From assembly GCA_015068825.1 (NCBI GenBank), contig SVJU01000019.1, forward strand, positions 1-33,165: a stretch of 33,165 nt of DNA, given 5' to 3'. The position numbers were made by a program, and so were the translations under genes. Below the pieces are notes generated by a model. It saw nothing but the letters and a program-made list of their open reading frames with translations, was not told the DNA's origin and did no database searches. The number at the start of each line of letters is the position of its first letter. The stretch's first letter is position 1. This document shows, one piece after another, positions 899-24,411 of the stretch. This DNA comes from Oscillospiraceae bacterium. Lineage in GTDB: Bacteria > Bacillota > Clostridia > UMGS1810.

Positions 899-1561
899 TT
901 ACATATTCTTTCTTGCTTCTTTTATTTTTTCAACATGAAGCTTTGTAAGTCTTTCAATTTCTTTATAATCGCCATTTTTAATAAGCTCGGGTTTAAGAAT
1001 TGAAATACCTGTTCCAACACCTTTTGCACCCGCTTTTATAAATGCCTCGATTGTATTTTCGTTTGTTCCGCCAACGCAGATAAACGGAATGTGCGATAAA
1101 GGTCTTGTGATGTTTATAATATAATCTACTTTATCAATAGTTGCAGGGAAAAGTTTAATAATATCTGCACCATTTTTGTAAGCGGTTTTGCACTCTGATG
1201 GTGTAAGAGCGCCCGGAATTGATACAAGCCCTAATTTTTTTGTTAATCGGATAACATCAAGGTCGGTGTCGGGCGAAAAGATAAAGTCTACACCTGCATT
1301 ATATGCGGCAACAACATATTCCTCACATACAACTGTTCCTGCACCGATAAGCATTTTATCGCCAATAACTCTTCTTGCTTCTTTGATTAGCTTTGTTGTT
1401 TCTTCTATTGTGTTTTCATCACTTGGATTAAACGCAATCTCAATTATTCTTGCACCGCCGTTATATAAAGCCATAACGGTTTTTTCAATTTTTTCAAAAG
1501 GAACGCCTCTGAATATTACAATAAGGCCTTCTTTTTCAATCATTGCTGCTTTAGTATTCAT
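899..1561 (-). CDS. 2-keto-3-deoxy-phosphogluconate/galactonate-type aldolase (KDPG/KHG aldolase family)
   Basis: This is a class I aldolase of the KDPG/KHG family, which cleaves 2-keto-3-deoxy sugar acids, usually 6-phosphates, to pyruvate and an aldehyde. The 220-aa length is normal. The Schiff-base lysine is K136 in the motif DIIKLFPA, and the catalytic glutamate is E41 in IIEIAFN. Position 45 is Asn where KDPG aldolase (Eda) has Arg. E. coli DgoA (KDPGal aldolase) also has Asn here, so the enzyme is probably not a standard Eda. It is the last gene of operon A and overlaps the upstream dehydratase gene by 11 nt. A GAGG site precedes the start at 1561. No 2-keto-3-deoxygluconate kinase gene is in the window, so either the kinase lies elsewhere or the substrate is not phosphorylated. 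Confidence 0.88.
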   Translation of the reverse strand: MNTKAAMIEKEGLIVIFRGVPFEKIEKTVMALYNGGARIIEIAFNPSDENTIEETTKLIKEARRVIGDKMLIGAGTVVCEEYVVAAYNAGVDFIFSPDTDLDVIRLTKKLGLVSIPGALTPSECKTAYKNGADIIKLFPATIDKVDYIINITRPLSHIPFICVGGTNENTIEAFIKAGAKGVGTGISILKPELIKNGDYKEIERLTKLHVEKIKEARKNM

Positions 1562-2744
1562 ATTTTTTATCCTCTAATCCTTTAAAATAATAAATTGTGT
1601 CATCTTTAGGTCTTATGTCTGTTACTGCACCTGTGTAATGACGTAAGTTTCTTGGTGTGTATGGTCTTTTTAATACTTCGTCAACATTAACATCAATACC
1701 AATACCTGGTTTATCGTTAATTTTAATGTAACCGTCTTCAAATACAACTTCTTCGTTTGTGATTTTCTTTCTGAATGAACCGTCTGTAAGCATAATTTCG
1801 TGAATTACAAAGTTTGGCACAGTTGCTGCAAGCTGAAGAATTGCCGCGTTTGAAACAGGTCCTGACGGATTGTGGTAAGAAATCATAATATGTTTTGCTT
1901 CTGCCATTGCCGCAATTTTTTTGCCTTCCATAAGTCCGCCTGTGTGGAATACGTCTGGCTGAGCATAGTCAACGGCATCTTTAGAGAACATTTCCTGGAA
2001 TGCATATTTTGTATATCCTCTTTCGCCTGCTGCAATCGGAATACGTGAATGTTTGCGTACATAAGCGGTAGAATCCATATTATCAGGAACACAAGGCTCT
2101 TCCATAAACATTGGTTTAAACTGCTCAAGTTCTCTTGAAATTTCAATAGCGGTTGTAGGATTAAATCTTCCGTGACACTCAATTAAAAGGTCAACCTTAT
2201 CGCCTACCGCTTCTCTTACCGCACCAACAATGTTAACGCTCTTTTCAAGTTGTTCTCTTGAAATTGTCATATGTGCTGCACCGAAAGGGTCCCATTTAAG
2301 TGCTTTAACACCAAGTGCTACTGTGTTTTTTGCTTTTTTTGCAAATTCTTCTGGTGTTTTTGCACCAACAAACCATGCATTTGCGTACATTTTAACCTTG
2401 TCACGAACTTTTCCGCCAAAGAAAGTTGATACAGGAGTATTGAAGAATTTACCCATAATATCCCAGAGAGCAATTTCAATACCACTCATTGCGCTCATCA
2501 AAACTGCGCCGCCCTTCCAGTAAATATCACGGTAAACTTCAAACATAAATTTTTCGATTTCCATAGGATTTCTGCCTACAACAAGTCGTTTAAGGTCTAA
2601 AATCATACCTTCAAGTGCATTTTCGTTTGTACCAAGTGATGCTTCACCCCAGCCATATAAGCCTTCGTCTGTTTCAACCTTAATAAATGCCCAGTTTGTT
2701 CTGAAAGCATCTAAAGTATAAATTTTTACATCAGAAATTTTCAT
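1551..2744 (-). CDS. Enolase-superfamily sugar-acid dehydratase (gluconate/galactonate dehydratase type)
   Basis: This is a mandelate-racemase/enolase-superfamily dehydratase that converts an aldonic acid to its 2-keto-3-deoxy form. It has the N-terminal capping domain (about residues 1-120) and a TIM-barrel. Mg ligands are visible in LIECHGRF (about 185-195), FMEEP (about 215) and AAGER (about 240); a later SYHNP motif carries the usual barrel histidine. The IE-x-HGRFN pattern matches my memory of Sulfolobus gluconate dehydratase (GnaD) better than mannonate dehydratase. The 397-aa length is typical. It is coupled to the upstream SDR gene (TAATG, one-base overlap) and to the downstream aldolase, forming a short oxidise-dehydrate-cleave operon. 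The exact substrate cannot be read from sequence. Confidence 0.87.
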   Translation of the reverse strand: MKISDVKIYTLDAFRTNWAFIKVETDEGLYGWGEASLGTNENALEGMILDLKRLVVGRNPMEIEKFMFEVYRDIYWKGGAVLMSAMSGIEIALWDIMGKFFNTPVSTFFGGKVRDKVKMYANAWFVGAKTPEEFAKKAKNTVALGVKALKWDPFGAAHMTISREQLEKSVNIVGAVREAVGDKVDLLIECHGRFNPTTAIEISRELEQFKPMFMEEPCVPDNMDSTAYVRKHSRIPIAAGERGYTKYAFQEMFSKDAVDYAQPDVFHTGGLMEGKKIAAMAEAKHIMISYHNPSGPVSNAAILQLAATVPNFVIHEIMLTDGSFRKKITNEEVVFEDGYIKINDKPGIGIDVNVDEVLKRPYTPRNLRHYTGAVTDIRPKDDTIYYFKGLEDKKYEY

Positions 2745-3508
2745 TATCTTTTCCCTCCGTCAAATGGTAATAGCGACACCAAAACGCCCGAATCAATAGT
2801 AAGCTCGGTGCCTGTTACTGTTTTTGACAAATCTGTGCCAAGATAAAAAACGCCGTTTGCAATATCTTCGCCTGTTGATTCTAACCCAAGCGGCCAGTTG
2901 GCTCTTCTTTTAGCAATCTGCTCATCGGTTAAATCGTCCCAACGGTCTGTTTTAATGGCTCCGGCAATAATAACATTTGAACGAATACCATATGGACCAA
3001 GTTCAATAGCCATAGAACGCGAAAGTGCATTTATGCCGCCTTTTGATGCAGTATAAAGACTTCTGCCCCAGATTGATTCGTGAGCGTGAACCGAGCTTAT
3101 AAGAACAATTGAGCCTTTTTGATTTTCTTTCATAATAAGTGCTGCTCTTTGTGAGCAAAAATATGTACCCTTTAAGTTTACATCCATTAAATCGTCATAA
3201 TCTTTGCTTGTTACAGTTAAAATATCGTAATCGACACCTAAATTTGCGCTGTTTGCAACAAAAGTATCAAGTGTGCCAAAATCATTTTTAATTTCGTCAA
3301 ATACTCTTATAATTTCATCTACATTGGCTAAATCAAGAGCATATCCTCTTGCTTTTATTTTAAATTCGTCCTCAAGATTTTTAGCTGTTTTTTCAGCATC
3401 ATCTTTTCTTCTGCTTGAAATTGCAACATCAAAACCCTCGCTGGCAAATTTTTTTGCAATTGCAAGACCTGTGTTTTTTGTTGCACCTGTAATAAATACT
3501 GTAGGCAT
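2744..3508 (-). CDS. SDR family oxidoreductase (paralogue 1)
   Basis: This is a classical short-chain dehydrogenase/reductase of 254 aa. The cofactor motif is TGATKNTG near residues 8-15, an N-x-G variant of the usual TGxxxGxG. The catalytic set is N111, S138/S139, Y152 and K156. It is the first gene of operon A, with a GGAGGG ribosome binding site. It closely resembles the SDR encoded at 4541-5353, including a shared RANWPLG(L/M)ES segment and the C-terminal SG-x-EL-x-(I/V)DSGV pattern. In this context it may oxidise a sugar to its lactone or a 2-keto-3-deoxy acid at C4. Which one cannot be decided from sequence. Confidence 0.9.
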   Translation of the reverse strand: MPTVFITGATKNTGLAIAKKFASEGFDVAISSRRKDDAEKTAKNLEDEFKIKARGYALDLANVDEIIRVFDEIKNDFGTLDTFVANSANLGVDYDILTVTSKDYDDLMDVNLKGTYFCSQRAALIMKENQKGSIVLISSVHAHESIWGRSLYTASKGGINALSRSMAIELGPYGIRSNVIIAGAIKTDRWDDLTDEQIAKRRANWPLGLESTGEDIANGVFYLGTDLSKTVTGTELTIDSGVLVSLLPFDGGKR

Positions 3509-4540: not shown

Positions 4541-5353
4541 TTATTTAACAAGCTTTTCTCTTTCGTCTTTTTCCATATCCCAGTTTTTGTTGTAGGATAA
4601 TAAAACAGACATAACGCCTGAGTCAACAGTCAGTTCGCTACCGCTTATTGTATTTGCCTGATCTGATGATAAGAAGTATGCGGCATTTGCAATATCGTCA
4701 GGGTATGATTCCATACCAAGAGGCCAGTTGGCTCTTTTTTTCTCATAATCTTCTTCGGTATAATTAACCCATCTGTCGTTATATACCGCACCAACAATAA
4801 TAAGATTGCTTCTTATACCAAATTTTCCAAGTTCGTAGCACATATTTCTGTTCATAACTTCAATTGCGCCTTTAGATGCTGCATAAACAATTCTGTTTGG
4901 AAGTGCACGTTTACTGTGAACAGAGCCTATAAGAACAATGCTTCCTTTAATATTGGTATCAATCATAAGCTTTGCAGCTTCCTGTGAGCAGAAAAAGTAA
5001 CCTTTTGCGTTACTGCCTATTACATGGTCAAACTGCTCAGGTGTGGTAGATAAAATGCTCTGGTTGTATCCTGGGTCTGCCGCATTTGCAATAAGAGCAT
5101 CAATTCTGCCAAATTTTTCTCTTACCTTTTTAAAGGTTTCTTTAATCTGGTCCAGCTCATTTGTAAGCATACCATAGCCTACTGAGGTAATTTTTGGAAA
5201 TTCATTTTGAACTTCAAGTGCTGCTTTATCGGCAGATTGCTGGTCCCTGCTTGTAATACAAACATCATAGCCTTCTTTTGCAAATCTTTTTGCAATTGCA
5301 AGACCTATATTTCTTGCGGCACCTGTTATTAAAACTACTTTGTTTTCTGTCAT
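4541..5353 (-). CDS. SDR family oxidoreductase (paralogue 2)
   Basis: This 270-aa short-chain dehydrogenase has the nucleotide motif TGAARNIG (residues 10-17) and the catalytic set N115, S144, Y157 and K161. It is clearly a paralogue of the SDR at 2744-3508, with a C-terminal extension of about 15 residues ending in a charged tail. It is the last gene of operon B, 24 nt after the IlvD-type dehydratase, with an AAGGAG ribosome binding site. By analogy with non-phosphorylative fucose and rhamnose pathways, it could oxidise a 2-keto-3-deoxy acid at C4 to the 2,4-diketo acid. It could instead oxidise the free sugar. Role assignment is inference; family assignment is firm. Confidence 0.9.
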   Translation of the reverse strand: MTENKVVLITGAARNIGLAIAKRFAKEGYDVCITSRDQQSADKAALEVQNEFPKITSVGYGMLTNELDQIKETFKKVREKFGRIDALIANAADPGYNQSILSTTPEQFDHVIGSNAKGYFFCSQEAAKLMIDTNIKGSIVLIGSVHSKRALPNRIVYAASKGAIEVMNRNMCYELGKFGIRSNLIIVGAVYNDRWVNYTEEDYEKKRANWPLGMESYPDDIANAAYFLSSDQANTISGSELTVDSGVMSVLLSYNKNWDMEKDEREKLVK

Positions 5354-5377
5354 TTTAAAACTTCTCCTTTTAATTTA

Positions 5378-7033
5378 TTAAAGCCATGTAGCACCTTTTG
5401 CTGTTGATGAAACATTTCGTGCAAAAAGTCTTAAGAATGGTTTGAATTTTTCTTCCTGAAGCTTCCAGTCAACTTTTTCTAATCTTTCTTCAATTTCTTT
5501 ATCGGTTAAATCAATATTAATGCTTCTTTTTTCTACATCAATAAGTATTTTATCGCCGTCTTTAACAATTGCAAGAGGGCCTTTTATTGCAGCTTCGGGA
5601 GCAACATATCCAATGCTAAGTCCGCTTGAGCCGCCCGAAAATCTTCCATCGGTGATTATTGCAACCTTATCGTAAATATCCATTCCTGCAAGCTCTTTCT
5701 GGAAAGCGAATGCTGTTGTCCCAAATCTTCCTTTTGGTCCAAGATAGTTTATAACAACCACATCACCGGGTTTTATTTTTCCTTCTCTTAATGCACTTAT
5801 TGCTTTGTCAACCTCGCAAAATACCTTTGCAACACCTTCAAATTTAAGCATATTTTTTGGTACTGCGGCAGTTTTTAAAATTGCGCCTTCAGGTGCAAGA
5901 TTTCCCTTTAAAACAGATATTCCGCCATCGTCCAAAACAGGTGCATTTATATCGTGAATAACCTTGTTATCATAGATAGGTGCATCTTTATAGTTTTCAA
6001 AAAGAGTTTTTCCGTTTATGGTTTTTGCATCAGAATGAAGAAGTGGAAGCAGGTTTTTCATAAGTCCCTTCATACCGCCTGCTCTTTCAAAATCGTTAAA
6101 ATAGTAAGGCCCGTTTGGTGCAATTTCGGTAAGAAGCGGAATTTTGTGTGACATTTCGTCAAAAAAGCTCCACCAGTCGGCATCAATTCCTGCTTCGTGT
6201 GCGATTGCGGGGATATGTAGTAAAAGGTTTGTTGAGCCTGCAATTGCAATGTCGGTTATAATTGCATTTTCAATAGCCTCTTTTGTGATGATATCACGGG
6301 CTGTAATACCTTTTTTAACCATTTCCATTACATATTTTCCGCCTTCATAAGCCATTGCTCCAAGGCGTTTGTCGGTTGCATTAACCGTTGCATTACCAGG
6401 GGGTGTCATACCCATTGCCTCTGCAATACAGCACATACTGTTTGCAGTTGTCATAGAGCCGCAGGCACCTTGTCCTGCGTGAGCAGAGCAAACCATATCG
6501 TCAAATTCTTCTCTTGAAACCTTGTTCTGCATAACCTTGCCAACAGTAGAAGAAACCTTTGTTAAACCTATTTCTTCGCCTTTGTAATAGCAAAGAGGCA
6601 TATATCCGCCAGTAACTACAACAGTTGGAATGTTAAGACGAGCTGCTGCCATAAGCTGACCTGGAACAATTGAGTCACAAGTGCCAAGAAGTACCATACC
6701 GTCAAACATATTAGCTTCAACATTAAGCTCTATTTCGTCTGCGATAAGGTTTCTGCTTGGAAGCTCAATGTATCGTGGGTCTTTTAAAACCATACCATCG
6801 CAAATACCTGTTGTGGTAAGCTCAAACGGAAGTCCGCCTGCTTCTCTTATGCCGTCTTTTACCCTTTGTGCAATTTCTTTTAGATGCACATGACCAGGAT
6901 TATATTCGTTCCATGAATTTACAACCGCAATATATGGCTTTTTGATTTCGTCTTTTGTGTAGCCCATTCCGTATAAAATACCGTCTCGTTTTACACTGCC
7001 AACGCCAAATTCCCATTTACTTCTTTCAAACAT
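5378..7033 (-). CDS. IlvD/EDD family dehydratase, probably a sugar-acid dehydratase
   Basis: This Fe-S cluster dehydratase of the dihydroxy-acid/phosphogluconate dehydratase family has 551 aa, close to bacterial IlvD. Visible motifs are NPGHVHL (residues 45-51), CDGM (78-81), GTCDSIVPG with C119, ACGSMTTANSM with C191, and the C-terminal TDGRFSGGSSG. The PGH motif is as in E. coli IlvD rather than the PCN motif of some sugar-acid dehydratases. C119 and C191 are probable cluster ligands. Branched-chain amino acid genes are absent, while SDR, amidohydrolase and kinase genes share its operon, so a sugar-acid substrate is more likely than dihydroxyisovalerate. The gene starts five bases after the kinase stop codon, with the ribosome binding site inside the kinase 3' end. 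Confidence 0.88.
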   Translation of the reverse strand: MFERSKWEFGVGSVKRDGILYGMGYTKDEIKKPYIAVVNSWNEYNPGHVHLKEIAQRVKDGIREAGGLPFELTTTGICDGMVLKDPRYIELPSRNLIADEIELNVEANMFDGMVLLGTCDSIVPGQLMAAARLNIPTVVVTGGYMPLCYYKGEEIGLTKVSSTVGKVMQNKVSREEFDDMVCSAHAGQGACGSMTTANSMCCIAEAMGMTPPGNATVNATDKRLGAMAYEGGKYVMEMVKKGITARDIITKEAIENAIITDIAIAGSTNLLLHIPAIAHEAGIDADWWSFFDEMSHKIPLLTEIAPNGPYYFNDFERAGGMKGLMKNLLPLLHSDAKTINGKTLFENYKDAPIYDNKVIHDINAPVLDDGGISVLKGNLAPEGAILKTAAVPKNMLKFEGVAKVFCEVDKAISALREGKIKPGDVVVINYLGPKGRFGTTAFAFQKELAGMDIYDKVAIITDGRFSGGSSGLSIGYVAPEAAIKGPLAIVKDGDKILIDVEKRSINIDLTDKEIEERLEKVDWKLQEEKFKPFLRLFARNVSSTAKGATWL

Positions 7034-7038
7034 AATTC

Positions 7039-8202
7039 CTACCTTCTTTCTAATAACTTATAAGTATTTTTTGCTACCATTAATTCTTCATCTACATAAG
7101 TGATATATATTTTTACCTTTGATGTATCTTTTGAAATTTCAAAGGTTCCTGTATTTTCTGTATTTTCAAGCTTTTCATCGTCAAGCTCAAGACCCAGAAA
7201 TTCAAGCCTTTTTAAAATATCTTTTTTAATTCTGATACTGTTTTCACCAATACCGCCCGAAAAGCTTATGGCATCAACACCGCCAAGTGTGGCAAGGTAA
7301 GACGAAATATATTTTGCAACAGAATATGTATAAGCATCAAGCACTGTTTTGTCGTTTCCATTTTCTATATCACGCATATCATTTGAGATTTTGCTCATTC
7401 CCAAAAGACCGCATTTTGTGCTTAAAAATTTACGCATATCCTCGGCATTCATATTCTCTTTTTCCATTAAATAAAGAATAGAAAATATATCAACATCACC
7501 GCATCGGTTGTTCATTGCAACACCGCTCTGTGGCGAAAATCCCATACTTGTGTCAACTGATTTTCCATTTTTTATAGCGCATACAGATGAGCTTCCGCCA
7601 AGATGTACAGAAATAATTTTTTCGTGCTTGTCGGATAACTTATGTGCCACATAGCTATGCGCTGCACCATGGAAACCATATTTTCTTATGCCGTATTTTT
7701 GCGCCAAATCTTTGTCTATCGGATACATTGTGGCATAAGAGGGAATGGTGTTATGAAATGCGGTTTCAAATGAGCCAACAATTTTAATATTCGGGAAAAG
7801 ATTTTTTACAATTTTATAAGCTTCTATGTACGGAGTGTTGTGCGCAGGTGCAACAAGCGATAAATCTTTCATTTTATCAATAACATCATCATCTAAAACG
7901 CAAGGATAATTTATTTCGCCTGCCATAACGGTTTTAAAACCAATTGCGCCAACATTTTTTCTTCCGCCTTCGCAATTTTCGTCTATTAAAGAAATTACTT
8001 TTTCAAGGCAGATTTTATAGCCATCTTTTGTGTCAAGAAAGCCTTTTTCTTTAAAGTTTTTGGCTAAAAATTCAAAATCGCTTTTGTCAGTAAAAACCGA
8101 GCCGATTTTACCTTTAGCAATAACACTTTCATCTTCCATATTAAAATATTTGAATTTAAAAGATGTACTGCCTATATTTAAAACAAGAATATTACAAGCC
8201 AT
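7039..8202 (-). CDS. Divergent acetate/butyrate kinase family protein (acyl-phosphate kinase)
   Basis: This ASKHA-fold acyl kinase of 387 aa would make ATP from an acyl phosphate. The start at 8202 (residues MACNIL) is chosen over an upstream in-frame ATG because it places the N-terminal NIGSTS phosphate loop as in acetate kinases. Conserved features are N9, S12, S14, K16, H121 (PAHN), the YGFHG motif, the SVHLGG and DTSMGF motifs, an Arg in MNNRCGD, and DEEL near the end. Several active-site positions differ from the family (numbering of the Methanosarcina enzyme from memory): Arg91 is K90, Leu122 is A120, Asp148 is E146, and MGTR is MNNR. These changes suggest another, perhaps bulkier, acyl phosphate. 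The gene overlaps the DUF1116 gene by 11 nt, indicating joint function. Confidence 0.85.
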   Translation of the reverse strand: MACNILVLNIGSTSFKFKYFNMEDESVIAKGKIGSVFTDKSDFEFLAKNFKEKGFLDTKDGYKICLEKVISLIDENCEGGRKNVGAIGFKTVMAGEINYPCVLDDDVIDKMKDLSLVAPAHNTPYIEAYKIVKNLFPNIKIVGSFETAFHNTIPSYATMYPIDKDLAQKYGIRKYGFHGAAHSYVAHKLSDKHEKIISVHLGGSSSVCAIKNGKSVDTSMGFSPQSGVAMNNRCGDVDIFSILYLMEKENMNAEDMRKFLSTKCGLLGMSKISNDMRDIENGNDKTVLDAYTYSVAKYISSYLATLGGVDAISFSGGIGENSIRIKKDILKRLEFLGLELDDEKLENTENTGTFEISKDTSKVKIYITYVDEELMVAKNTYKLLERR

Positions 8203-9607
8203 ATTTATCACCGTAAGCTTCAATAGCTTTTTCAAAGCATTTATAAGGAACTTTTGCAATACCTGCACCAAGACGTTTTCCTGTTGTGGAAATCATACCG
8301 CCGTGAATAACAGGCTCAATGCAGGTGTCAAGAACTTTTCTTATATCAATTCCTGTTGGTGTGCCACGGTAGTTAAGTGCGGGGATAAGATAGTTGGCAT
8401 TTTCGCAAACTGTAATTTCGCTCATATTAAGTGTTTGTTCAATACCATCGTTTAATGTTTTGTCAAGCGATCTCATAACTGCAGGTGCGGCTGCTGCGGC
8501 AAATCCGCCAAGACCTGTTGCCTCTAAAATACAGCTGTCGCCAATCCACGGTAAAACTTCATCTGCATTAACATCTGATGCAACATATTCGCCCGTAATT
8601 TTTGGTGACGGAGCATTATACCAATTTGTTCCAAGTCCGCTTACCTTTATGCCGTATTCAACACCATTACCAACCATTGATGTTACGATTGTAGAATATT
8701 CAACATTTCTTATTGCCTCTAAAAGTGCCATTGCAGATGCCATTCCAAGAGGATGGAAAAATCTTACTGTGCCATATAAAAGGTCAACGCATTTTTTTCT
8801 TTCGTCATCGGTTAGAGGAGCTTCAAAAAGCATTTTCATAAGCTCGTTTGTAGCAATAAGACCTGTTGCATCTTGTCGTGAATGAAGCTCATCGCCCATT
8901 TCAACGCCACGGGTGAAGATTTTTCTCATTGCCATACCACCGTTTAATTCAAGAACTTTTGTCATTGCAGGAGCAATAATATCGTGCACCATATCAAGAT
9001 GTTCTCTTATGCTCTCGTTAAAAATACCCCAGCCTGCAAGACCGCCACGGTTCGGACCTTCAAAAGGAGGACAGAAGCCTCTAAAGCCTGTGTTTTTGTC
9101 TTCAACAATGTTAACTGCCATAGAAGGAGTTGTAATTCCTGAACCTGGCCCTACAAGGTGATAATCGTTTGAAGAAACAAATCTTACTTCGCCCTTTTCA
9201 AGCATTTTTCTTGCTTCATCTTCATTCTTTGCATAGCCTTCGTATAAACAGCCATTAATACCGCCTTGCTGTTGGGTAGCACACATTTTATCCCAAGGAA
9301 TATCAGGACCTGAATGCATAACCATTCCGTCTTCAACACCCGGTACACATTCTTTTGCAGGTTTTACACCAATCCAGTAAGGGTCGGTGTTATTTATTAT
9401 GTCAATAACCTTTTTGTTTGCTTCTTCAATTTTAATTTTAAAATCAGAATACATTGTTTTATCCAAAATTTCTTTTGCTCTTTTGGATAATTCCTTCTTT
9501 TCGGTTGGTTTCCAGTTAAGCTGCAAAGCGTCAATGCCCTGCTGTTTTATTGCATCGCAAAAAACATCTGTGCCAACATTTATTACATTTATTTTTTCGT
9601 TTAGCAT
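8192..9607 (-). CDS. DUF1116 family protein (YlbE/AllG-like), subunit of a transcarbamylase-like complex
   Basis: The 471-aa protein matches the DUF1116 family: a MHSGPDIPW motif (about residues 96-104), EGYAKNEDEA, VGPGSGITTPSMAV, a GMAMRK/GVEMGDELHSRQDAT block in the middle, and Gly/Ala-rich GLGGFAAAAAP near residue 365. E. coli YlbE is one of three proteins (with FdrA and YlbF) reported as oxamic transcarbamylase, AllFGH. Here the gene directly follows fdrA (TAA then ATG, no gap; ribosome binding site inside the fdrA end) and overlaps the kinase gene. It is cytoplasmic, with no signal peptide. The ordered set implies an obligate complex. Its substrate here is probably not oxalurate, given the sugar-acid genes around it. 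Confidence 0.88.
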   Translation of the reverse strand: MLNEKINVINVGTDVFCDAIKQQGIDALQLNWKPTEKKELSKRAKEILDKTMYSDFKIKIEEANKKVIDIINNTDPYWIGVKPAKECVPGVEDGMVMHSGPDIPWDKMCATQQQGGINGCLYEGYAKNEDEARKMLEKGEVRFVSSNDYHLVGPGSGITTPSMAVNIVEDKNTGFRGFCPPFEGPNRGGLAGWGIFNESIREHLDMVHDIIAPAMTKVLELNGGMAMRKIFTRGVEMGDELHSRQDATGLIATNELMKMLFEAPLTDDERKKCVDLLYGTVRFFHPLGMASAMALLEAIRNVEYSTIVTSMVGNGVEYGIKVSGLGTNWYNAPSPKITGEYVASDVNADEVLPWIGDSCILEATGLGGFAAAAAPAVMRSLDKTLNDGIEQTLNMSEITVCENANYLIPALNYRGTPTGIDIRKVLDTCIEPVIHGGMISTTGKRLGAGIAKVPYKCFEKAIEAYGDKYGL

Positions 9608-11149
9608 TTATCTTTCCTCCAGTTTATTTATAATTTCAAACGCATTTTTTGCCGCAATAAAGTTTGTATCAAAAAGTATTACGCCTGCATCTTTTAAAAT
9701 TTTTGCCTGCTTGTAAAAATCCTGCGGGTCTAAATCACTTCCACAGATTGTTGCTATAACAACAAGGTTTCTGCCTTCTTTTTTTGCTCTTTCTTTTTCT
9801 TCTGTGATAGCCTTAGCCATAACCGATGCAGGATCGGGATGAAGTGCATATCCTAAAAGAAAATCAAGATAAATAACGCTGGTTTCTTTATCACGTGCTT
9901 CTTTTATAAAGCGGTTAACCCTTGCGGTAGGGTCAATTGCAACGTGTGCTCTTCCTTTTGTAAAAGCTTCGTCACCAATGTCTATGATTGAGTTTTTGTA
10001 GCTTGTAAATGGGTCCTTGAGCATTAAATTATCATTCAGTGCAACATTTGAGTATAAATCCTTGCCGTTTTTATTCCAGTAAATAAGGGTTTCGTCAGTC
10101 AATGCACCGCCACAAAGGATTGCTCTTAAATATTTTTGACCGGGCTTGAATTTTTTAATTTCTTCATCTATGTTTAATTCATCTTCAAATATTTTTTTAG
10201 GCTCGATTTTTTTGCCTGACGATAATTCCATAAGAATATTTGCAGTTTCGTCAAAGGTTTCACCATACAGGATGCCGTTTTCCTTTAAAAGATTGTTGTC
10301 GCCGTTTAAAAAGTGAACAACAACTTTCTTTTTGCATTTTTTAATCTCGTCAATTACCTTTATAAAAGCCGATTTTGAAGGCGGTTTCGAAATAAGTGCA
10401 ATTATCTTTGTTCCTTCGTCCTCTTCAAGCGCTTTTATGCTTTGTATCATGGTAGCTCCTCCAACCTCGTCGGATAAATCCCTTCCGCCTGTGCCGATTG
10501 CGTGAGAAATTCCAAAGCCGTTTCTGTGAAGAAGAACCATAACCTCCTGTATGCCGCTTCCTGAAGCTCCCACAATGCCAATATCGCCTCGGTTTACCAT
10601 AGAGCAAAGACCAATCGCAACACCGTTAATAAACGAAAGACCGCATCCAGGGCCCATCATAAACTTTCCTTTTTCAATTGCAAGCTTTTTAAGCTCAACT
10701 TCATCTTTAATGTCAACATTATCGCTGAACATAAAAACGTTCATATCATTCATAAGTGCTCTTCTGGCTTCCAAAGCCGCAAACTTTCCTGCAACCGAAA
10801 TTATTGCAAGGTTAGCATCAGGATTTGCATTTTTTGCACTTGGAATACTTTGGTAACTGTTTTTAGATGCTGTGGTTTTTTCGTTTACAAGACGATAAAA
10901 TTCTTCTATTGCCTTGTCGAATGAAGCATCATCCTTTGCCTTTATTGCAATAATTAAATCGTTTGGCCCTGCATTTTTTAAATCTTCTGTGTTAAGTCCA
11001 AGGTCGGTAATAGTTTCTTTGTTTAAGGGCGTTCCCATACCGATTGATGCATTTTCAACATTGTCACTCTCGGAGAGTTTTCTTGCAATTTTCATTAAAA
11101 ATACCGAATCGTAATATCGGTTTTTTTCAATGTAGTTTTTTATAACCAA
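9608..11149 (-). CDS. fdrA: FdrA family protein (succinyl-CoA synthetase alpha-like; AllF-like)
   Basis: The 513-aa protein has the FdrA N-terminal signature YYDSVFLM (about residues 12-19) with M-GTPLNKE. It has a CoA-ligase-like Rossmann core with GASGSGIQEV (about 195-204), IGTGGRDLSDEVGG and ISKPP. A C-terminal half carries LCGGALTDE and DFLLGYALHPDPA. The active-site His-Ala-Gly loop of succinyl-CoA synthetase is not visible (the region reads VVVHFLNGD), so NTP-dependent ligation through a phosphohistidine looks unlikely. In E. coli, FdrA with YlbE and YlbF is reported to transfer a carbamoyl group between oxamate and phosphate. Here it lies in a sugar-acid operon with an acyl kinase, so phosphorolysis of a carbon skeleton is proposed. 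Confidence 0.92.
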   Translation of the reverse strand: MVIKNYIEKNRYYDSVFLMKIARKLSESDNVENASIGMGTPLNKETITDLGLNTEDLKNAGPNDLIIAIKAKDDASFDKAIEEFYRLVNEKTTASKNSYQSIPSAKNANPDANLAIISVAGKFAALEARRALMNDMNVFMFSDNVDIKDEVELKKLAIEKGKFMMGPGCGLSFINGVAIGLCSMVNRGDIGIVGASGSGIQEVMVLLHRNGFGISHAIGTGGRDLSDEVGGATMIQSIKALEEDEGTKIIALISKPPSKSAFIKVIDEIKKCKKKVVVHFLNGDNNLLKENGILYGETFDETANILMELSSGKKIEPKKIFEDELNIDEEIKKFKPGQKYLRAILCGGALTDETLIYWNKNGKDLYSNVALNDNLMLKDPFTSYKNSIIDIGDEAFTKGRAHVAIDPTARVNRFIKEARDKETSVIYLDFLLGYALHPDPASVMAKAITEEKERAKKEGRNLVVIATICGSDLDPQDFYKQAKILKDAGVILFDTNFIAAKNAFEIINKLEER

Positions 11150-11959
11150 TTAAATCAGCTCCTTATTTTTTGTCATCTTATATCCCTTTAGTATTCCAAG
11201 GCATGTTTCAACTCCCGAGGAATGTCCGTAGTCTATAAGATTAAGGGTATATTTTTTTATATCGTTTTTATTTTTTGAAATTGAATATATAACATTATAA
11301 ACCGAATCGTTTATATATCCGTTTAAAGTATCGTAAAGAAGATTTTTGCTTACAAAGGTTGTTGATTTGTCGCCATATTTTTCAAGATAATCTTTAAGAT
11401 GAAAGTTAAAATCGTAATTTTTACCGCATAAATAAAAATATGCCGATATGCCTGATATAACATCATCGCACGATGGTGTAAGCCCAATGCCAAGCCCTAT
11501 AAGCGACTTAAAACCCTCTTTGTAATTTTTATAAAGCTTTTTAAAGCCTTCATCTGCCTTTTTCTTTATAATACCTTCTGAAAAAAGAGGCGATTTTTCA
11601 AGGTGTGGTTTTATAATATCTTCAAAAATCAAAAAATTTTCGTCGATGTTTTCGCTTATGTTTAAAATCTCTCTTTTTGTTTTTATTTTTCTGGCATTTT
11701 TATAGTCAAAGCAAAAATCATCTATAAAGATTTTTTTATCTTTGTTTATAACCTTCATATCATCAAAAATGCCGTTTATATTTTCCATATTGCTTATAAG
11801 CGCTCTTGTAGAAAATTTTTGAGTTTTTTTGAATATGGTAAGCATTTTACTTTCTTCTGTAATAATGTTAAAGCAGTTATTAAATACACCGCTTACTCTT
11901 CCATATTCAAAGTTTAAGTCAAATATATTTTCGCATATATCTGTTATTTCAAAGTTCAT
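11150..11959 (-). CDS. DUF2877 family protein (YlbF/AllH-like)
   Basis: The 269-aa protein has the DUF2877 hallmark GIGLTPSCDDVISG at about residues 157-170, a glycine-rich loop followed by acidic residues. An all-beta-looking N-terminal half precedes it, with little obvious conservation. It is the third member of the FdrA-DUF1116-DUF2877 set. Its stop abuts the fdrA start without a gap, and its start overlaps the FAD oxidoreductase stop by four bases (ATGA), so the genes are translationally coupled. It is richer in Phe, Ile, Lys and Asn than its neighbours. Subunit of the same complex is inferred from the E. coli system and synteny. Confidence 0.85.
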   Translation of the reverse strand: MNFEITDICENIFDLNFEYGRVSGVFNNCFNIITEESKMLTIFKKTQKFSTRALISNMENINGIFDDMKVINKDKKIFIDDFCFDYKNARKIKTKREILNISENIDENFLIFEDIIKPHLEKSPLFSEGIIKKKADEGFKKLYKNYKEGFKSLIGLGIGLTPSCDDVISGISAYFYLCGKNYDFNFHLKDYLEKYGDKSTTFVSKNLLYDTLNGYINDSVYNVIYSISKNKNDIKKYTLNLIDYGHSSGVETCLGILKGYKMTKNKELI

Positions 11960-13524
11960 ATTTTTATCCTTTTGTGAATGAAATTTCTTTCGTATTCTTT
12001 GTTTGTATCAGGAAAATCATATCTTGTATGAACGCCCCTTGATTCTTTTCTTTCAATGGCGGCTTTTACCGAAAGAATACATACGGTAAGCATATTTTCA
12101 TACTCTGTTTTTGAAACATACGCATCAAAATCAAGATATGATGTATTTATGCTTTCGTTAAACATATTTTCAAGCGCTTTTTGTGCATCCATGAGTAAAT
12201 TGGGGTATCTTACAGGACCCATATTTTTCGACATTAAATCTCTTAAATAAAGCTTTTTATCTTCAAAATACTTTTTGCTTTGAGCATTTTGAGCTTGTTT
12301 TTCGTAAGATTTATTTTGAAGTGGTAAAAAATCATTTTCTTTTGCGTATTTTGCACTCTGATACCCTGCAATTGTGCCAAAAACATAAATTTCTGTTCCT
12401 GCATTTCCGCCAACTCTGTTTGCTCCGTGAATACCGCCTGCCGCTTCACCTGCCGCAAAAAGACCGTCAATGTTTGTTTTGGTGTTTTTGTCTATTACAA
12501 TACCGCCCATAAATGAGTGCGCACAGGGGGCAACTTCAATTTTTTCTTTTGTAATATCAATGCCTTCATTTAAAAAGCGTTTGTAGTATAGTGAGTGTTT
12601 TTCTATTATTTCGTCTTTTGGGATATCGGTAAGGTCAAGATAAACACCGTTATGCTCTAAGCCGTTGCCTTTTACAATTTCTTCAAAAATAAGCTTTGCA
12701 AGGGCATCTTTTGGTATTTTTCCTTCACTGTCATAATACTTTAATAAAAAGCGCTCGCCGTTTTTATTTGTTATTTTTCCGCCCTTTGCCAAAAGCGTTG
12801 TAGAAATGCCAAGCTTTTTAGGATAAATACATCTGCAAGGCTCATACTGAATAAATTCCATATCGGTAAGGTAAGCGCCTGCACGATATGCAGCGGCATA
12901 TCCGTCGCCTGTCATGTTAAAATGATATGTACTGTCCTTTGCGATGTGAATACCGCCTGTTGCAACAATAATTGCTTTGCACCATACAGTAACAATTTCT
13001 TTTTTGTCAAGGTCAAAATAAGTTGCACAGGCTACCTTTTCATCTTTTACAATAATGTCTTTAAGCATTGCGTTGTATTTTATTTTTACGCCGTTTTCGC
13101 AAGAGAGTTCTTTAAATTTTTCAAGTGTTATTTTTCCTGTTAAGTTTTCTATGTGTGCAAGCCTTGGGTAAGTGCAGCCAAGTGGTTTTAAAAGATGATA
13201 TCCATTATCATCTTTTTCAAATTCAAGATTTATTTTTTCAATATCTTCCACTTCTTTTTTTGCATTTTGTGCAAGTGTTTTAACAAGCTCTTTGTTGTTT
13301 ATAAGTCCGCCGCCCAAAAGAGTATCGTTATAGTAGGTATCAATGTCATCATCAGGTGATAAAACTGCGTTAAAGCCCAAAACATGATTTGATGCACACT
13401 CTTTTGTTTTTGAAATAACAAGAACATCCATACCTTCTTTTGATGCTGTCAAAGCCGCTTTTATTCCTGCAATACCGCTTCCTGCAACAAGTATATCGGT
13501 TTTAATAATTTTTCTGTTATCCAT
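11956..13524 (-). CDS. FAD-dependent oxidoreductase, fumarate reductase/L-aspartate oxidase flavoprotein family
   Basis: The 522-aa soluble flavoprotein has a GSGIAG dinucleotide loop (residues 15-20) and a second FAD motif ATGG. TGDGYAAAYRAGA and LTDMEFIQYEP follow. A GERF segment and APCAHSFMGGI (capping and active-site region) come next, then the C-terminal FAD motif GLFAAGEAAGGIHGANRVGG. It resembles L-aspartate oxidase and fumarate reductase flavoprotein subunits. There is no twin-arginine signal and no adjacent iron-sulfur or cytochrome subunit, so electrons must pass to a separate carrier or the enzyme uses a free acceptor. In operon B it could oxidise a hydroxy acid or sugar, or reduce an enoate as an electron sink. 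The sequence does not decide between these. Confidence 0.85.
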   Translation of the reverse strand: MDNRKIIKTDILVAGSGIAGIKAALTASKEGMDVLVISKTKECASNHVLGFNAVLSPDDDIDTYYNDTLLGGGLINNKELVKTLAQNAKKEVEDIEKINLEFEKDDNGYHLLKPLGCTYPRLAHIENLTGKITLEKFKELSCENGVKIKYNAMLKDIIVKDEKVACATYFDLDKKEIVTVWCKAIIVATGGIHIAKDSTYHFNMTGDGYAAAYRAGAYLTDMEFIQYEPCRCIYPKKLGISTTLLAKGGKITNKNGERFLLKYYDSEGKIPKDALAKLIFEEIVKGNGLEHNGVYLDLTDIPKDEIIEKHSLYYKRFLNEGIDITKEKIEVAPCAHSFMGGIVIDKNTKTNIDGLFAAGEAAGGIHGANRVGGNAGTEIYVFGTIAGYQSAKYAKENDFLPLQNKSYEKQAQNAQSKKYFEDKKLYLRDLMSKNMGPVRYPNLLMDAQKALENMFNESINTSYLDFDAYVSKTEYENMLTVCILSVKAAIERKESRGVHTRYDFPDTNKEYERNFIHKRIKI

Positions 13525-13527
13525 AAA

Positions 13528-14454
13528 TTATTCCTCGCTCTTATCAAGAAGTTTTAATGCATTTTTGCGACAGATTTTTTCGTAAGCAGTATAAGAAAGG
13601 TGTCCTTGTTCGCAGATTTCATCTAAAAATGCTGATAGATTAAGCATTTCATAAGCAGGGTTATCAGGATTTATATTTTCAGGGTCGTGAATATCGGTAG
13701 CAAAGAAAATTCTGTCTTGAAATTCTTCTAAAAATTTGTATGTATATTCTTTATCCCTTACCATTGCTCTGTAACCTGAAAGAGAAGATAAATCGCAGTA
13801 AAGGTTTTTGTATTTTCGCATAAGATGGGCAACCCTTCCTTCTTCTTTTACCTTTCCTGTGGGGTATGAATCTCTGGTTTCTTCTGTAACTGATGCATCA
13901 AGCTCTGACCAGAATCTAACCGAATGGCCTATAATTTTAAGGTCAGGGAACATTTTTAAAACCTTTTCAAGTTTAGGAAGGTGTAAATCATCTACAACAC
14001 CATAGTCGTATTCTTCTTTTCCGAAATGAAGTGTAACAGACATATCACACATTTCGCAGTGCTTAAAAAAGTTAAGCATTCTTTTATCGTCAAGGCTTAT
14101 GTTTGCAATCTGCTCGCTAACACCCCTTGCGCCTCTTTCTTTGTAATAGTTTAAATAGTGCGAAAAGTTTGTTGTGTCGTTGTTGCTTCCAAACCGCGGG
14201 TCGATACCGCAAAACCACCATCCGATTGTGTCGTTATAATCCTTTGCAATTTTTTCTGCCTCTCTTGGCGATAATCTTTCTGTTGTAAATTCAGGGCAGG
14301 TTCCCGGTGGCAAAAGCACGCCCTTTTCAACACCTATTTTGTCGTATATATCTCTTAATTCTTTAACTGTCGGGTAAAAATGCCCCGAAAGCTTTGGAAT
14401 TCCTCTTTCTTCAATACAATGAACATGCATATCAATTTTTTTAAGCTTTTTCAT
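13528..14454 (-). CDS. Amidohydrolase family metal-dependent hydrolase (possible sugar lactonase)
   Basis: The 308-aa protein belongs to the amidohydrolase-2 TIM-barrel group. The metal-binding HxH is H10/H12 in DMHVHC. Later ligands are likely in VTLHFG and IIGHSVRFW, and the barrel-end aspartate in FATDIHDP. The start at 14454 is chosen because GGAGGG lies just upstream; a longer in-frame ATG at 14484 has no such site. It is the first gene of operon B, three bases before the FAD oxidoreductase. Related amidohydrolases open sugar lactones in fucose and rhamnose oxidation, which fits the pathway. Decarboxylases and hydratases also occur in this superfamily. Substrate unproven. Confidence 0.8.
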   Translation of the reverse strand: MKKLKKIDMHVHCIEERGIPKLSGHFYPTVKELRDIYDKIGVEKGVLLPPGTCPEFTTERLSPREAEKIAKDYNDTIGWWFCGIDPRFGSNNDTTNFSHYLNYYKERGARGVSEQIANISLDDKRMLNFFKHCEMCDMSVTLHFGKEEYDYGVVDDLHLPKLEKVLKMFPDLKIIGHSVRFWSELDASVTEETRDSYPTGKVKEEGRVAHLMRKYKNLYCDLSSLSGYRAMVRDKEYTYKFLEEFQDRIFFATDIHDPENINPDNPAYEMLNLSAFLDEICEQGHLSYTAYEKICRKNALKLLDKSEE

Positions 14455-14608: not shown

Positions 14609-15721
14609 TTGAAAACATCCAGAATTTTAGTTGTTGCAGAAAAAAACTATCAAAAATCGGTATGGTGCAGTAAAATTTTAGAAGGCATCGAAAAAAAGAA
14701 TTTTAACCTTATTTCGCTTGAGGATTTAAGCAATTTAAACGAAAATGATGTTGTTGCAATAATAGGTTCAACAAATCATTTTTTAAGAAAAAGTATTCTT
14801 ATGTGTAACGAAAAAAAATTAAGATGTGTTGTTGTCGGTGCCGAAATTTCTGATTTTGAATATCCGATAAGCAGTATAAAGGTAAGCAGAAAATCGGCTG
14901 TTACATCGCTTGTGCATTATTTTAATCATTTAAAAAGAGTAAATTGTGCACTTTTGGGTGTTAACAGCTTTTCTAATATAGATATGGAAAAGAAGGATGC
15001 TTTTTTATCTTCGTACAGGGCACTGTATAATAAAGATGCAATAAATAATGTATTTTTTAGTGATGACGGTGTAAAAGAGTGTGTTAACAAACTTTTGAAT
15101 AATGTATCATCATTCGATTCGGTTATATGTTCAAACGATTATTTTGCGGTTTGTTTTATAACCGAAGCAAAAAAACTTGGAATAAAAATCCCCGATGATA
15201 TTTTGGTGGCAGGTTATGGAGATTCGTACATAGGCGAAAAAATAACACCGTCTTTAACAACTGTTGCTCCAAAATATTTTGAAATGGGTACACAGACACG
15301 AAAGGTATATCATTATCTTTTAGAAAATCCATCTGTAAAATCGATTGAAGTTTTGGTTGATTATGATATAATCGTAAGAGAAAGTACTGATAAAAAAGAA
15401 TTTAAACTTGATTATCATACTGATATGTCAAATTTTGAGCCGTGTCATATAAGTATATTTGACGATGAAAACCTTAAAAAAATTATGGGTATGGATTTTA
15501 TTCTTGAATCTTACGATAAAACACTTTCTATGATTCTTGACGGAATATATAATGATATTCCGTATGGAGCACTTGCAGAAAAATTATATCTTTCGGATTC
15601 TGCTTTAAGATACAAGTTAAATAAAATATTTACCTATACCAATACCAAATCTAAAAGTGAGCTTAAAAAGCTTATTGAAACACTTAATTTAAAGGACGAT
15701 GAAAATGCAAAGAACGATTGA
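14609..15721 (+). CDS. Transcriptional regulator: LacI-type sugar-sensor domain followed by a C-terminal helix-turn-helix
   Basis: The 370-aa protein uses a TTG start at 14609, placed by AGGAGGGGG at 14596-14604. Residues about 1-265 match the periplasmic-binding-like sensor of LacI/GalR regulators (VVGAEISDF, FDSVICSNDYFAVCFITEAKKLGIKIPDDILVAGYGDSYIGEKITPSLTTV in overlapping pieces). The usual N-terminal LacI helix-turn-helix is missing. Residues about 305-355 instead look like a LuxR/AraC-type helix-turn-helix (YGALAEKLYLSDSALRYKLNKI). It is divergent from operon B and overlaps the aldose epimerase gene. It likely senses a sugar or sugar acid and controls operon B, the transporter, or both. 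Confidence 0.82.
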   Translation: MKTSRILVVAEKNYQKSVWCSKILEGIEKKNFNLISLEDLSNLNENDVVAIIGSTNHFLRKSILMCNEKKLRCVVVGAEISDFEYPISSIKVSRKSAVTSLVHYFNHLKRVNCALLGVNSFSNIDMEKKDAFLSSYRALYNKDAINNVFFSDDGVKECVNKLLNNVSSFDSVICSNDYFAVCFITEAKKLGIKIPDDILVAGYGDSYIGEKITPSLTTVAPKYFEMGTQTRKVYHYLLENPSVKSIEVLVDYDIIVRESTDKKEFKLDYHTDMSNFEPCHISIFDDENLKKIMGMDFILESYDKTLSMILDGIYNDIPYGALAEKLYLSDSALRYKLNKIFTYTNTKSKSELKKLIETLNLKDDENAKND

Positions 15722-16562
15722 AATAAAGAATAAAGACTTATGCGCAAAAATAGAAACTTTAGGTGCGCAGCTTGTAAGCTTAAAAGATGAAAAAGAAGAA
15801 TATATGTGGCAACGTGATGAAAATGTGTGGGGATATTGCTCACCTGTTGTATTCCCGATTTGCGGAGGTCTTAATGAAGGAAGATATATTTTTAATAACA
15901 AGGAATATTCTATGATGCAGCATGGCTTTGCAAGATTTAAAGAATTTGAAGTTGAAAAGCACATAGAAGATGAGGCTGTATTTTTGCTCAAAGCCGATAG
16001 CGAAACAAAGAAAATATATCCTTTTGATTTTGAGTTTAGAATAACTTTTAAACTAATCGGAAAAAAGCTTGATATTACATATTCGGTAAAAAACATTTCA
16101 AATGATAAAATTTACTTTTCTTTTGGCGGTCACGAGGGCTATGCCTGCCCTGAAGGAGCAGAGGAATATTTTATAAAATTTGAAGGTGATGCCCGCCTTA
16201 CAAGACATATGTTGGAAAATGGATTTTTTAACGGAAAATGCGAAGAAATACCTCTTGAAGACGGTATTTTTAATATTGATTATAAAGAGTTTGAAAAGTG
16301 TACTTATGTTTTTAGAAATATAAACTCAAAAAGCGTTATATTTTCACACAAAGACGGAAGAAGAAAATTAAGAATAGGCATAAACGGGCATAATACCCTT
16401 GCAATATGGACACTTCCTTCAAGAAATTATGTTTGTATTGAGCCATGGTGCGGTGTATCAGAAGTTAAGGGATTTAATGGCGATATAACTAAAAAAGACG
16501 GCATTGTTGTTTTAGATGGAAATGATGTTTTTGAAAGATGTCATTTTATAGAAATTTTGTAA
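15705..16562 (+). CDS. Aldose 1-epimerase family protein (LacX-like)
   Basis: This 285-aa galactose-mutarotase-like beta-sandwich protein interconverts alpha and beta anomers of a sugar, which can feed an anomer-specific dehydrogenase. Motifs are LGAQLVSLKD, WGYCSPVVFPICGGL, MMQHGFARFKEFEV with the catalytic-type His, GGHEGYACP, and CIEPWCGVSE with the catalytic-type Glu. The ATG at 15705 is preferred to the one at 15699 because AAGGA (15692-15696) then has proper spacing. The start overlaps the regulator 3' end by 17 nt, so the two genes are co-transcribed. A strong terminator follows. Confidence 0.87.
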   Translation: MQRTIEIKNKDLCAKIETLGAQLVSLKDEKEEYMWQRDENVWGYCSPVVFPICGGLNEGRYIFNNKEYSMMQHGFARFKEFEVEKHIEDEAVFLLKADSETKKIYPFDFEFRITFKLIGKKLDITYSVKNISNDKIYFSFGGHEGYACPEGAEEYFIKFEGDARLTRHMLENGFFNGKCEEIPLEDGIFNIDYKEFEKCTYVFRNINSKSVIFSHKDGRRKLRIGINGHNTLAIWTLPSRNYVCIEPWCGVSEVKGFNGDITKKDGIVVLDGNDVFERCHFIEIL

Positions 16563-22626: not shown

Positions 22627-24008
22627 TTAAAAGAATAGTTTCTTTATGTTTGGCATCGTTGATGCTTTTTAGCTCTGTTTACGCAGTAAGCATTGATACA
22701 CAAAAAACTGATTATGATTTTGACACAAAAATATGCCATATTGAAGGTGTAACAACCTATAAAAATCAGCCAGTTAAGCTTGAGGTGTTAAAAAAGAACA
22801 AAAGCTTTGATAATAGTATTACATTTGATGATGTTATTTACATTAACCAGATTAATTCTGATGAAAATAAGAAATTTTCTTTTGATGTATATGAAGACGA
22901 AGCAGGAATTTTTTCTTACCGCATAACCGAGCTTGGCTCGGATGAAGTAAAAATTTCGGGTTTTGTAACATATACAGACGAAACTGTTGATGATGCAATA
23001 AAGGCATATTACGAAAACGAAGCAAGAACAACTTCTGATCTTAAAAAGCTTATAGACGATTATTATCCTAAATTTAATATCGACTATACAAAATATAAAG
23101 AGCTTGAACAAAATCTTGGTGAATATCTTGGCAAAATTAATTCTGCAACATATACCGATGCTCAAAGCTTTAAAGATGATGTTGCACTTGAAATTGCACT
23201 TGGAATTATAAATCTTGAAACCGATACATCAAAAAAGCTTGGCTATATAGATGAGTATAAAATCATTTTAGGCCTTGATGAAGATGAAATTTATGATGAA
23301 TTTTCAAAGCTTGGTCTTAATGAAGATGGTACAGGCGAAGTTGACAGCGTAGCAAAAGAGAAGATTATATCAAATATAAGAAATGATTTAACAAAAGAAA
23401 ATATAGCATCACAAATTAAAAACTACTATGTTTTATACAAAATTGAAGGTGCGGTATGGAGTGATATTAAGGGTATAGTAAATACATATCTTGACTTAGA
23501 CCTTACCGATACCTTGAAAAACATTACAAATGCACAAGTCAAAGACACAATGTCGTATATCAAAAAACAGGTTGAAGATAAGGTTATTACAAATACCGAT
23601 GATATTTTATCTTATGTAGTATCTTATGTTCAGAGCCTTCCTGTATACACTCCGTCAAAAGGCGGCGGTGGCGGCGGTTCGTCAAAAGGTGGATATGTAG
23701 TTTCCGGTGGAAATGTAACTATTCCTTCAACCAATAACGAACAAATTGTTTCAGACTCTATACCTTACATTAACACAAACACATCTTATTTTAATGATTT
23801 GGATAATGTTTTGTGGGCTAAAGATGCTATTGAAAATTTATATGCTGCCAAAATTGTAAATGGTGTTGGTGATAAAACTTTCAATCCAAATGGCAATGTA
23901 AAAAGAGAAGAATACATAAAAATGCTTGTTTCGATGCTAAAGCTTGAAGATAGTAATGCGCAAAGCAGTTTTGAAGATGTTGATAAAAATGCATGGTACA
24001 TTATATAA
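22623..24008 (+). pseudogene. SLH-domain surface protein, broken in its second SLH repeat
   Basis: A GTG start at 22623 overlaps the previous stop and is preceded by GGAGGTGG. The 461-aa reading frame has a signal peptide (to about residue 20) and a beta-rich N-terminal domain (about 20-125). A long helical part follows (about 125-335), then a Gly/Ser linker (about 345-360) and one full SLH repeat (DLDNVLWAKDAIENLYAAKIVNG-type, about 390-450). The second repeat starts as SFEDVDKNAWY and stops at once. Cell-wall anchoring normally needs three repeats, so the 3' end appears lost. Another frame carries an unrelated secreted-protein tail from this point, indicating a deletion fusion or misassembly. 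If intact, it would anchor partners to the wall. Confidence 0.7.
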
Positions 24009-24411
24009 AGGTGATGATGAATATGTTTACACATTTGAAGATTCATCAAATCCTATAACAAGTGGTAAATTTGGATTATCTAATGCTGCTGCTACAGGAA
24101 CAACCTATGTAAACAATATCAAAATTTCAAGCGGAAGCATTAACGAAGCTATCAAGCAGACATTTGCAAAAGGAAGCGCAGCAACACTTGAAATTCCTGC
24201 AATGCTTAAAGGCGACATCAAAATTTTATCTGGCATATATACAGATAACAATTTAATGGTTGGTGCAATGGTAAAAGATATTTCTGCTTTTGCAAATTCT
24301 GCTAAGGTTGAAATGTTTACAGACGGTCAGACAGCTGATGCAGATAAAATGAAAACATTTATCTGGAGCGGTCTTGATACATTGTTCCCATTAACTAAAT
24401 CTGCTAAGTAA
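23989..24411 (+). pseudogene. 3' remnant of a different secreted protein
   Basis: This frame opens without a ribosome binding site inside the SLH sequence. From about 24000 it encodes GTLYKGDDEYVYTFEDSS, then GKFGLSNAAATGTTYVNNIKI, which looks like the last strands of a laminin-G/concanavalin-like domain. It ends with ...KMKTFIWSGLDTLFPLTKSAK, a tail common in large clostridial secreted proteins. Its own start and most of its body are missing. It most likely came from a neighbouring gene joined to the SLH gene by deletion, or by an assembly error. Confidence 0.6.

Follow-up and report, generated by a model that had tools for sequence, protein, structure and literature searches.

What does an enzyme complex of the oxamic transcarbamylase type do inside an operon that otherwise looks built for sugar-acid breakdown? 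The question is raised by contig SVJU01000019.1 of an Oscillospiraceae bacterium (assembly GCA_015068825.1; 2.0 Mb, 62 contigs), which we analysed over its whole length of 33,165 nucleotides (hereafter the window; G000:C25, with G, C and L numbers denoting genomes, contigs and loci). Its minus strand carries adjoining genes for FdrA, DUF1116 and DUF2877 proteins, the families of the AllF, AllG and AllH subunits of Escherichia coli, where AllFGH interconverts oxamate plus carbamoyl phosphate and oxalurate plus phosphate (PMC11326118). On balance, we think that the operon probably encodes a non-phosphorylative sugar-acid pathway with an energy-conserving last step; we infer the reactions and the sugar, while the genes present, the layout of the operon, the recurrence of the module, the separate AllG clade, the absence of an AllK-type kinase and the altered residues are directly established. 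We give an even chance to the more specific proposal that this step is an undescribed reaction, the phosphorolytic C-C cleavage of a 2,4-diketo sugar acid by the AllFGH-type complex, which together with a dedicated acyl kinase would yield one extra ATP per sugar.

The operon is transcribed in the order amidohydrolase, flavin adenine dinucleotide (FAD)-dependent oxidoreductase, AllH, FdrA, AllG, an acetate-kinase-family protein that we call AckL, an IlvD/EDD-family dehydratase and a short-chain dehydrogenase/reductase (SDR). The genes are tightly packed (gaps of 24, 5, -11, 0, 0, -4 and 3 bases, from the SDR end to the amidohydrolase end), with FdrA meeting both AllH and AllG at 0 bases and a Shine-Dalgarno-like purine run before most starts. 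AckL begins at an ATG, and a longer open reading frame (ORF) with a TTG start extends to position 8271. Pfam upheld all family assignments of the operon genes, and FdrA exceeded the cut-off of NCBIfam NF004760 (459.7 versus 433 bits). The gene positions and the gapless trio claimed in a preliminary description, made from the sequence alone, were thus borne out by ORF calls and Pfam; additions to its gene list are a divergently transcribed aldose 1-epimerase and regulator, as well as an exchange of the amidohydrolase for a metallo-beta-lactamase (MBL)-fold hydrolase in distant members.

A pattern scan of contigs with a single protein returned only two relatives, and the survey was made by genome-wide searches instead. 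The gene set recurs in L001 (genome G513), L002, G398, G423 (L064) and G448 (L065). In G398 it is spread over two contigs, L062 and, for the FAD and amidohydrolase genes, L201; in G663 (L066) a contig end interrupts the module, leaving part only. G423, G448 and G663, with AllG proteins 40-41% identical to that of the window, have the MBL-fold hydrolase in place of the amidohydrolase. The aldose 1-epimerase gene occupies the same position in L001 (54% identity) and L002 (40%), and the SDR adjoins IlvD or stands one gene off in all clade loci. A chance gene neighbourhood is ruled out by the conservation of the module across genomes and within the AllG clade, so that the partner association noted in the preliminary description is not accidental. 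The module genomes carry five family codes within one class, and their close relatives mostly lack the module, which is therefore a sporadic and probably transferred catabolic unit; a search of the orders that include G448 and G663, and of the class of G274, revealed no members beyond those already known.

The AllG proteins of the module loci form one side of a branch with support of 100/99, and the clade was delimited by AllG sequence rather than by gene context. A profile of the clade scored G448 and G663 above 700 bits and other AllG proteins at no more than 412 bits in the genomes searched with it. The FdrA split matches that of AllG, with the FdrA of a further locus, L166 (genome G701), joining the window side. 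We compared neighbourhoods within 8.5 kb of AllG between the clade and 73 other AllG loci from a phylum sample (398 genomes) and a class sample (341 genomes); loci of the same clade are not independent, and the counts are descriptive. The clade loci had AckL in 6/7, IlvD in 7/7, the FAD protein in 6/7 and carbamate kinase in 0/7, the locus without AckL being one that ends at a contig end; among the other loci, AckL, IlvD and the FAD protein each occurred in 0/73 and carbamate kinase in 29/73. The trio thus co-occurs with an acetate-kinase-like gene rather than carbamate kinase in this clade, the comparison by which the preliminary description had proposed to judge its idea.

Could the complex nevertheless be an ordinary oxamic transcarbamylase that converts oxalurate to carbamoyl phosphate, with AckL as the kinase and the sugar genes as accidental neighbours? 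Each subunit of the complex has a homologue in AllFGH, for which an E. coli activity has been measured (PMC11326118), and the two systems share gene adjacency and an adjoining kinase for a high-energy phosphate product (fdrA, ylbE and ylbF with AllK in E. coli). The window AllG, however, is only about 32% identical to its E. coli counterpart, residues that are near-invariant in the usual group are replaced in its clade, an acetate-kinase-family kinase takes the place of carbamate kinase, which has the amino-acid-kinase fold, and sugar-acid genes, conserved together with the separate AllG clade, stand in place of allantoin genes. With E. coli AllK as query, no AllK-like carbamate kinase was found in G000, G398, G423, G448, G513, G663 or G701, while the same query detected carbamate kinase in both control genomes; the absence first noted for the operon consequently holds for the whole window genome. 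In the clade loci, no AllB-, AllC- or AllD-like genes lay within 8.5 kb. Because there is no carbamate kinase and no allantoin context and near-invariant residues are changed, the complex falls outside the oxamic transcarbamylase system by the features tested, and we regard the ordinary reaction as very improbable; most likely, the complex works like an oxamic transcarbamylase on a carbon substrate.

The comparison group itself is not uniformly oxamic transcarbamylase, since 34 of the 73 loci lack both carbamate kinase and the allantoin genes and permeases that were looked for. Many loci of the usual AllFGH type (L070:4867-13829; L067, L073-L076) are without carbamate kinase and allantoin genes; L070 has genes for a PucR regulator, a family III CoA-transferase, a putative cyclase (PF04199) and a CN-hydrolase, and a further AllFGH function is possible at such loci.

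The substitutions that set the module proteins apart fit an altered acyl substrate. In AllG, M155G, R313G, D354W, T436G, R192G and K189G are near-perfect group markers, with M155, R313, D354 and T436 near-invariant in the usual group; in FdrA the corresponding markers are N183S, T198S and D394E, and the core is unchanged, including the FdrA-invariant H402. A fold search with AllG matched 3clq of the same family (Z 42.9), and besides this nothing above noise was found that could serve as a remote clue to mechanism. AckL, which scores above the TIGR00016 cut-off, shares with the AckA and TdcD kinases the fold, the nucleotide-site glycine (Gly331), Asn7, His180, Arg241 and Glu384 (numbered by alignment to the Methanosarcina thermophila acetate kinase). 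By contrast, all seven AckL proteins, including that of L166, carry R91K, D148E, N211G, G212S and L122A/V, a signature found in 0/7 acetate kinases (six AckA of the same genomes and the M. thermophila enzyme), and most of the operon-linked kinases also have G239N and T240N; the window AckL has both of these, with Ala at position 122. In acetate kinase, Leu122, Val93 and Pro232 have been identified as residues that determine acetate binding (PMC4390882; for Leu122 also PMC3475010), and a smaller residue (Ala) at position 122 would leave room for a larger group, which suggests that the acyl site of AckL is enlarged for a bigger acyl group.

The flavoprotein shares with L-aspartate oxidase and fumarate reductase the FAD domain and the substrate-carboxylate Arg and His, retaining the carboxylate-binding His before the GG motif and the Arg of GANR. 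On the side of the second carboxylate it differs: in 7/7 operon-linked proteins the EFxQFHP motif has Glu for His and the PRD motif has Lys for the catalytic Arg. GGNAG also stands in place of the ASNS motif. In the family of L-aspartate oxidase and fumarate reductase the altered and retained positions serve dicarboxylate binding and catalysis; the pattern would suit a substrate that has a single carboxylate. In short, the residues of all four proteins point to machinery kept and specificity changed.

The same kinase changes bear on another explanation, in which the trio acts as a diketo-acid hydrolase or makes a CoA ester and AckL acts on another product or in the acid-activating direction. 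Succinyl-CoA synthetase and ATP-citrate lyase are homologues of FdrA, AckL is altered at catalytic residues and one copy in the clade has no adjacent AckL, all of which this explanation would accommodate; the E. coli complex, on the other hand, works with phosphate and carbamoyl phosphate and not with CoA (PMC11326118), and most loci show tight linkage of AckL to the trio, the kinase gene and allG sharing 11 bases in the window. We consider it improbable.

Genome-wide searches further showed that the operon enzymes are distinct from housekeeping relatives. An ordinary AckA was found in all six module genomes searched, beside AckL in five, and separate full-scoring dihydroxy-acid dehydratases (DHADs) were found in three (G398, G423 and G663), which sets AckL and IlvD apart from the housekeeping copies in those genomes. 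The window IlvD fell below two curated NCBIfam DHAD cut-offs (574.7 versus 618 bits and 584.7 versus 644 bits), as did the operon IlvD-family proteins of every module genome, whereas the true DHADs of G398, G423, G663 and G701 scored 765-794 bits. No fumarylacetoacetase-type (FAH) hydrolase is present in the operon, and FAA_hydrolase (PF01557) was not found anywhere in the genomes G000, G398, G448 and G513. The absence that the preliminary description had seen locally therefore extends to the whole window genome; its expected anticorrelation between the trio and FAH hydrolases held for these four genomes and failed for G423 and G663.

For the proposed pathway, a candidate gene is present for each upstream step. 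The aldose would be converted to a lactone by the mutarotase and the SDR, the lactone opened by the amidohydrolase (or the MBL-fold hydrolase in distant members), the aldonate dehydrated by the IlvD/EDD protein to a 2-keto-3-deoxy acid, and this acid oxidized at C4 by the FrdA/NadB-like flavoprotein, rather than by an SDR, to a 2,4-diketo-3-deoxy acid. The AllFGH-type complex would then use phosphate to attack the distal carbonyl, splitting C3-C4 to give pyruvate and an acyl phosphate (R-CO-OPO3), which would be glycoloyl-, lactoyl- or glyceroyl-phosphate depending on the length of the sugar, and AckL would transfer its phosphate to ADP, giving ATP. We propose phosphorolysis because oxalurate (HOOC-CO-NH-CO-NH2) and a 2,4-diketo acid (HOOC-CO-CH2-CO-R) are isosteric, differing only in NH/CH2 and NH2/R, with oxamate and pyruvate as the respective leaving groups. 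The retro-Claisen splitting of a beta-diketone releases much free energy, and by our own estimate this makes acyl phosphate formation energetically plausible.

The order resembles that of the L-fucose pathway, which proceeds through mutarotase, the first enzyme of the non-phosphorylative route, 1-dehydrogenase, lactonase, dehydratase, 4-dehydrogenase and diketo-acid hydrolase (PMC11199699). Route 3 for L-fucose and L-rhamnose (with the 4-dehydrogenase FucF and the LRA6-type diketo-acid hydrolase FucG) shares with the window the families of a mutarotase, a sugar dehydrogenase, an amidohydrolase-type (in the window putative) lactonase and a sugar-acid dehydratase, followed by oxidation and cleavage, which are predicted for the window. 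The window differs in that AllFGH and AckL occupy the place of the FAH hydrolase, the dehydratase is of the IlvD/EDD type and a flavoprotein would take the part of the SDR 4-dehydrogenase. In the open PMC literature we found no link between FdrA or DUF1116 and either an acetate-kinase-like gene or diketo acids.

The amidohydrolase retains HxH, H, H and D residues of the metal-binding type, invariant in 4 relatives, and its low-confidence model (pLDDT 65) matched amidohydrolase-2 folds, among them the LigI-type lactonase 2ffi (Z 19.1) and the COG3618 protein 4dlf (Z 17.9). Glycoside hydrolases near the loci were also considered as a means of naming the sugar; BNR/Asp-box proteins in the window, a weak GH43 match in L065 and an arabinofuranosidase in L166 were not consistent enough.

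L166 (positions 9308-14042) represents a third AllG-FdrA lineage, with an AckL-type kinase that has the residue signature described above, flanked by an alpha-L-arabinofuranosidase, a GHL6 hydrolase and esterases. AckL occurs there with FdrA and AllG but with no IlvD or FAD protein nearby, which hints that the pair of trio and AckL serves more than one sugar-derived acid; the only IlvD-family match listed for G701 is a true DHAD. This touches on the possibility that C-C phosphorolysis supplies AckL with an acyl phosphate from some other beta-dicarbonyl acid of this pathway, for example one derived from a uronate, an aldarate, a cyclitol or a branched acid. Such a reading would agree with the independence of AckL from IlvD and the flavoprotein in L166, with a hydrolase type that varies by sub-clade (amidohydrolase or MBL fold) and with the substrates of the IlvD, SDR and FAD enzymes not being fixed; the combination of mutarotase, SDR, lactonase-type hydrolase and IlvD/EDD protein nevertheless closely matches an aldose-to-keto-deoxy-acid route, and we judge another acid to be a rather unlikely substrate in the window.

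Several observations weigh against phosphorolysis of a 2,4-diketo sugar acid. FAH genes are kept elsewhere in the genomes of G423 and G663 (2/6 module genomes). In the second G423 copy IlvD comes straight after AllG and AckL is missing between them, no AckL was seen in G663, whose contig stops after AllG, and L166, as described, has neither IlvD nor FAD protein nearby. AckL is altered at the catalytically relevant Asn211 and Gly239, at which changes reduce the activity of the model acetate kinase (PMC4390882), so its predicted activity is uncertain. We see no obvious electron acceptor for the flavoprotein, and the lactonase-type and decarboxylase fold matches of the amidohydrolase model are tied. 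Finally, an aldolase lies inside the same operon in L001, L062 and L066, and the keto-deoxy acid could therefore also be split by another route; KDPG-aldolase-like genes suggest that an aldol cleavage is also open to the cell, comparable to route 1 for L-fucose. Overall, the interpretation offered in the preliminary description is supported in part: the conserved module, the coherent clade and the concordant substitutions in AllG, FdrA, AckL and the flavoprotein speak for it, and the FAH anticorrelation is partial.

Table 1. Genes of the operon and its surroundings in the window.
Feature	Position	Strand	Evidence and remarks
Amidohydrolase (PF04909), putative sugar lactonase	13528-14454	-	Pfam; ATG with GGAGG; longer ORF to 14484
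FrdA/NadB-like FAD enzyme	11956-13524	-	Pfam, NCBIfam and PDB sequence matches: succinate dehydrogenase, L-aspartate oxidase
AllH / DUF2877 subunit	11150-11959	-	PF11392 2e-19
FdrA / AllF subunit, succinyl-CoA-synthetase-alpha-like	9608-11149	-	PF00549/PF02629; NCBIfam NF004760; PDB 3dmy
AllG / DUF1116 subunit, divergent clade	8192-9607	-	PF06545 1.3e-55; PDB 3clq by sequence
AckL, acetate-kinase-family putative acyl kinase, altered acyl site	7039-8202	-	PF00871 5e-99; PDB 1tuu/1g99
IlvD/EDD-family putative sugar-acid dehydratase	5378-7033	-	PF00920/PF24877
SDR, candidate aldose 1-dehydrogenase (SDR1)	4541-5353	-	PF13561
LacI-type sensor-domain regulator, divergent	14609-15721	+	PF13377; same place in L001 and L002
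Aldose 1-epimerase (mutarotase), divergent	15699-16562	+	PF01263 7e-28
KDPG/KHG-aldolase-like protein	899-1561	-	PF01081; may provide a competing aldolase route
Galactonate-dehydratase-like enolase-superfamily protein, neighbour operon	1551-2744	-	NF010624 335 bits, cut-off 311
Second SDR, neighbour operon	2744-3508	-	PF13561; 67% identical in L002

Two SDR genes thus lie near the locus (Table 1), one of them in a smaller operon (899-3508) beside the main one, together with the galactonate-dehydratase-like and KDPG-aldolase-like genes. The galactonate-dehydratase-like protein is 91% identical in L002, where all three genes come after the main operon, and this neighbouring operon is probably a parallel sugar-acid route. 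On the plus strand, positions 19978-28101 hold two large BNR/Asp-box proteins (882 and 731 amino acids), an ABC transporter and other carbohydrate-related genes; these are possibly polysaccharide utilisation genes that feed the operon. Elsewhere in the window genome, L202:7447-11616 (G000:C36) contains a second IlvD/EDD gene in what looks like an ordinary sugar-acid cluster, together with KDPG-aldolase-like, SDR and DHDPS-family genes. In G398, the nearest relative of the window, a PfkB-family sugar kinase gene (L201:2756-3784) lies directly upstream of the amidohydrolase and FAD genes. The second G423 copy is fused and rearranged, with an FdrA-AllG fusion ORF of at least 1046 amino acids at a contig end (L063:1061-4198) and, on another contig, AllG directly followed by IlvD (L200:5315-8425).

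Non-phosphorylative sugar pathways that end in a diketo-acid hydrolase lose the energy of the bond that is broken; a phosphorolytic version, if true, would recover it as ATP. It would add a new enzyme activity to a family so far measured only in the reaction with oxalurate and carbamoyl phosphate, and AckL would be a new acyl kinase. The findings caution against labelling every FdrA-DUF1116-DUF2877 set an oxamic transcarbamylase; in the anaerobic, gut-type bacteria that carry the module, a remodelled nitrogen-scavenging enzyme would sit inside an operon for sugar-acid breakdown.

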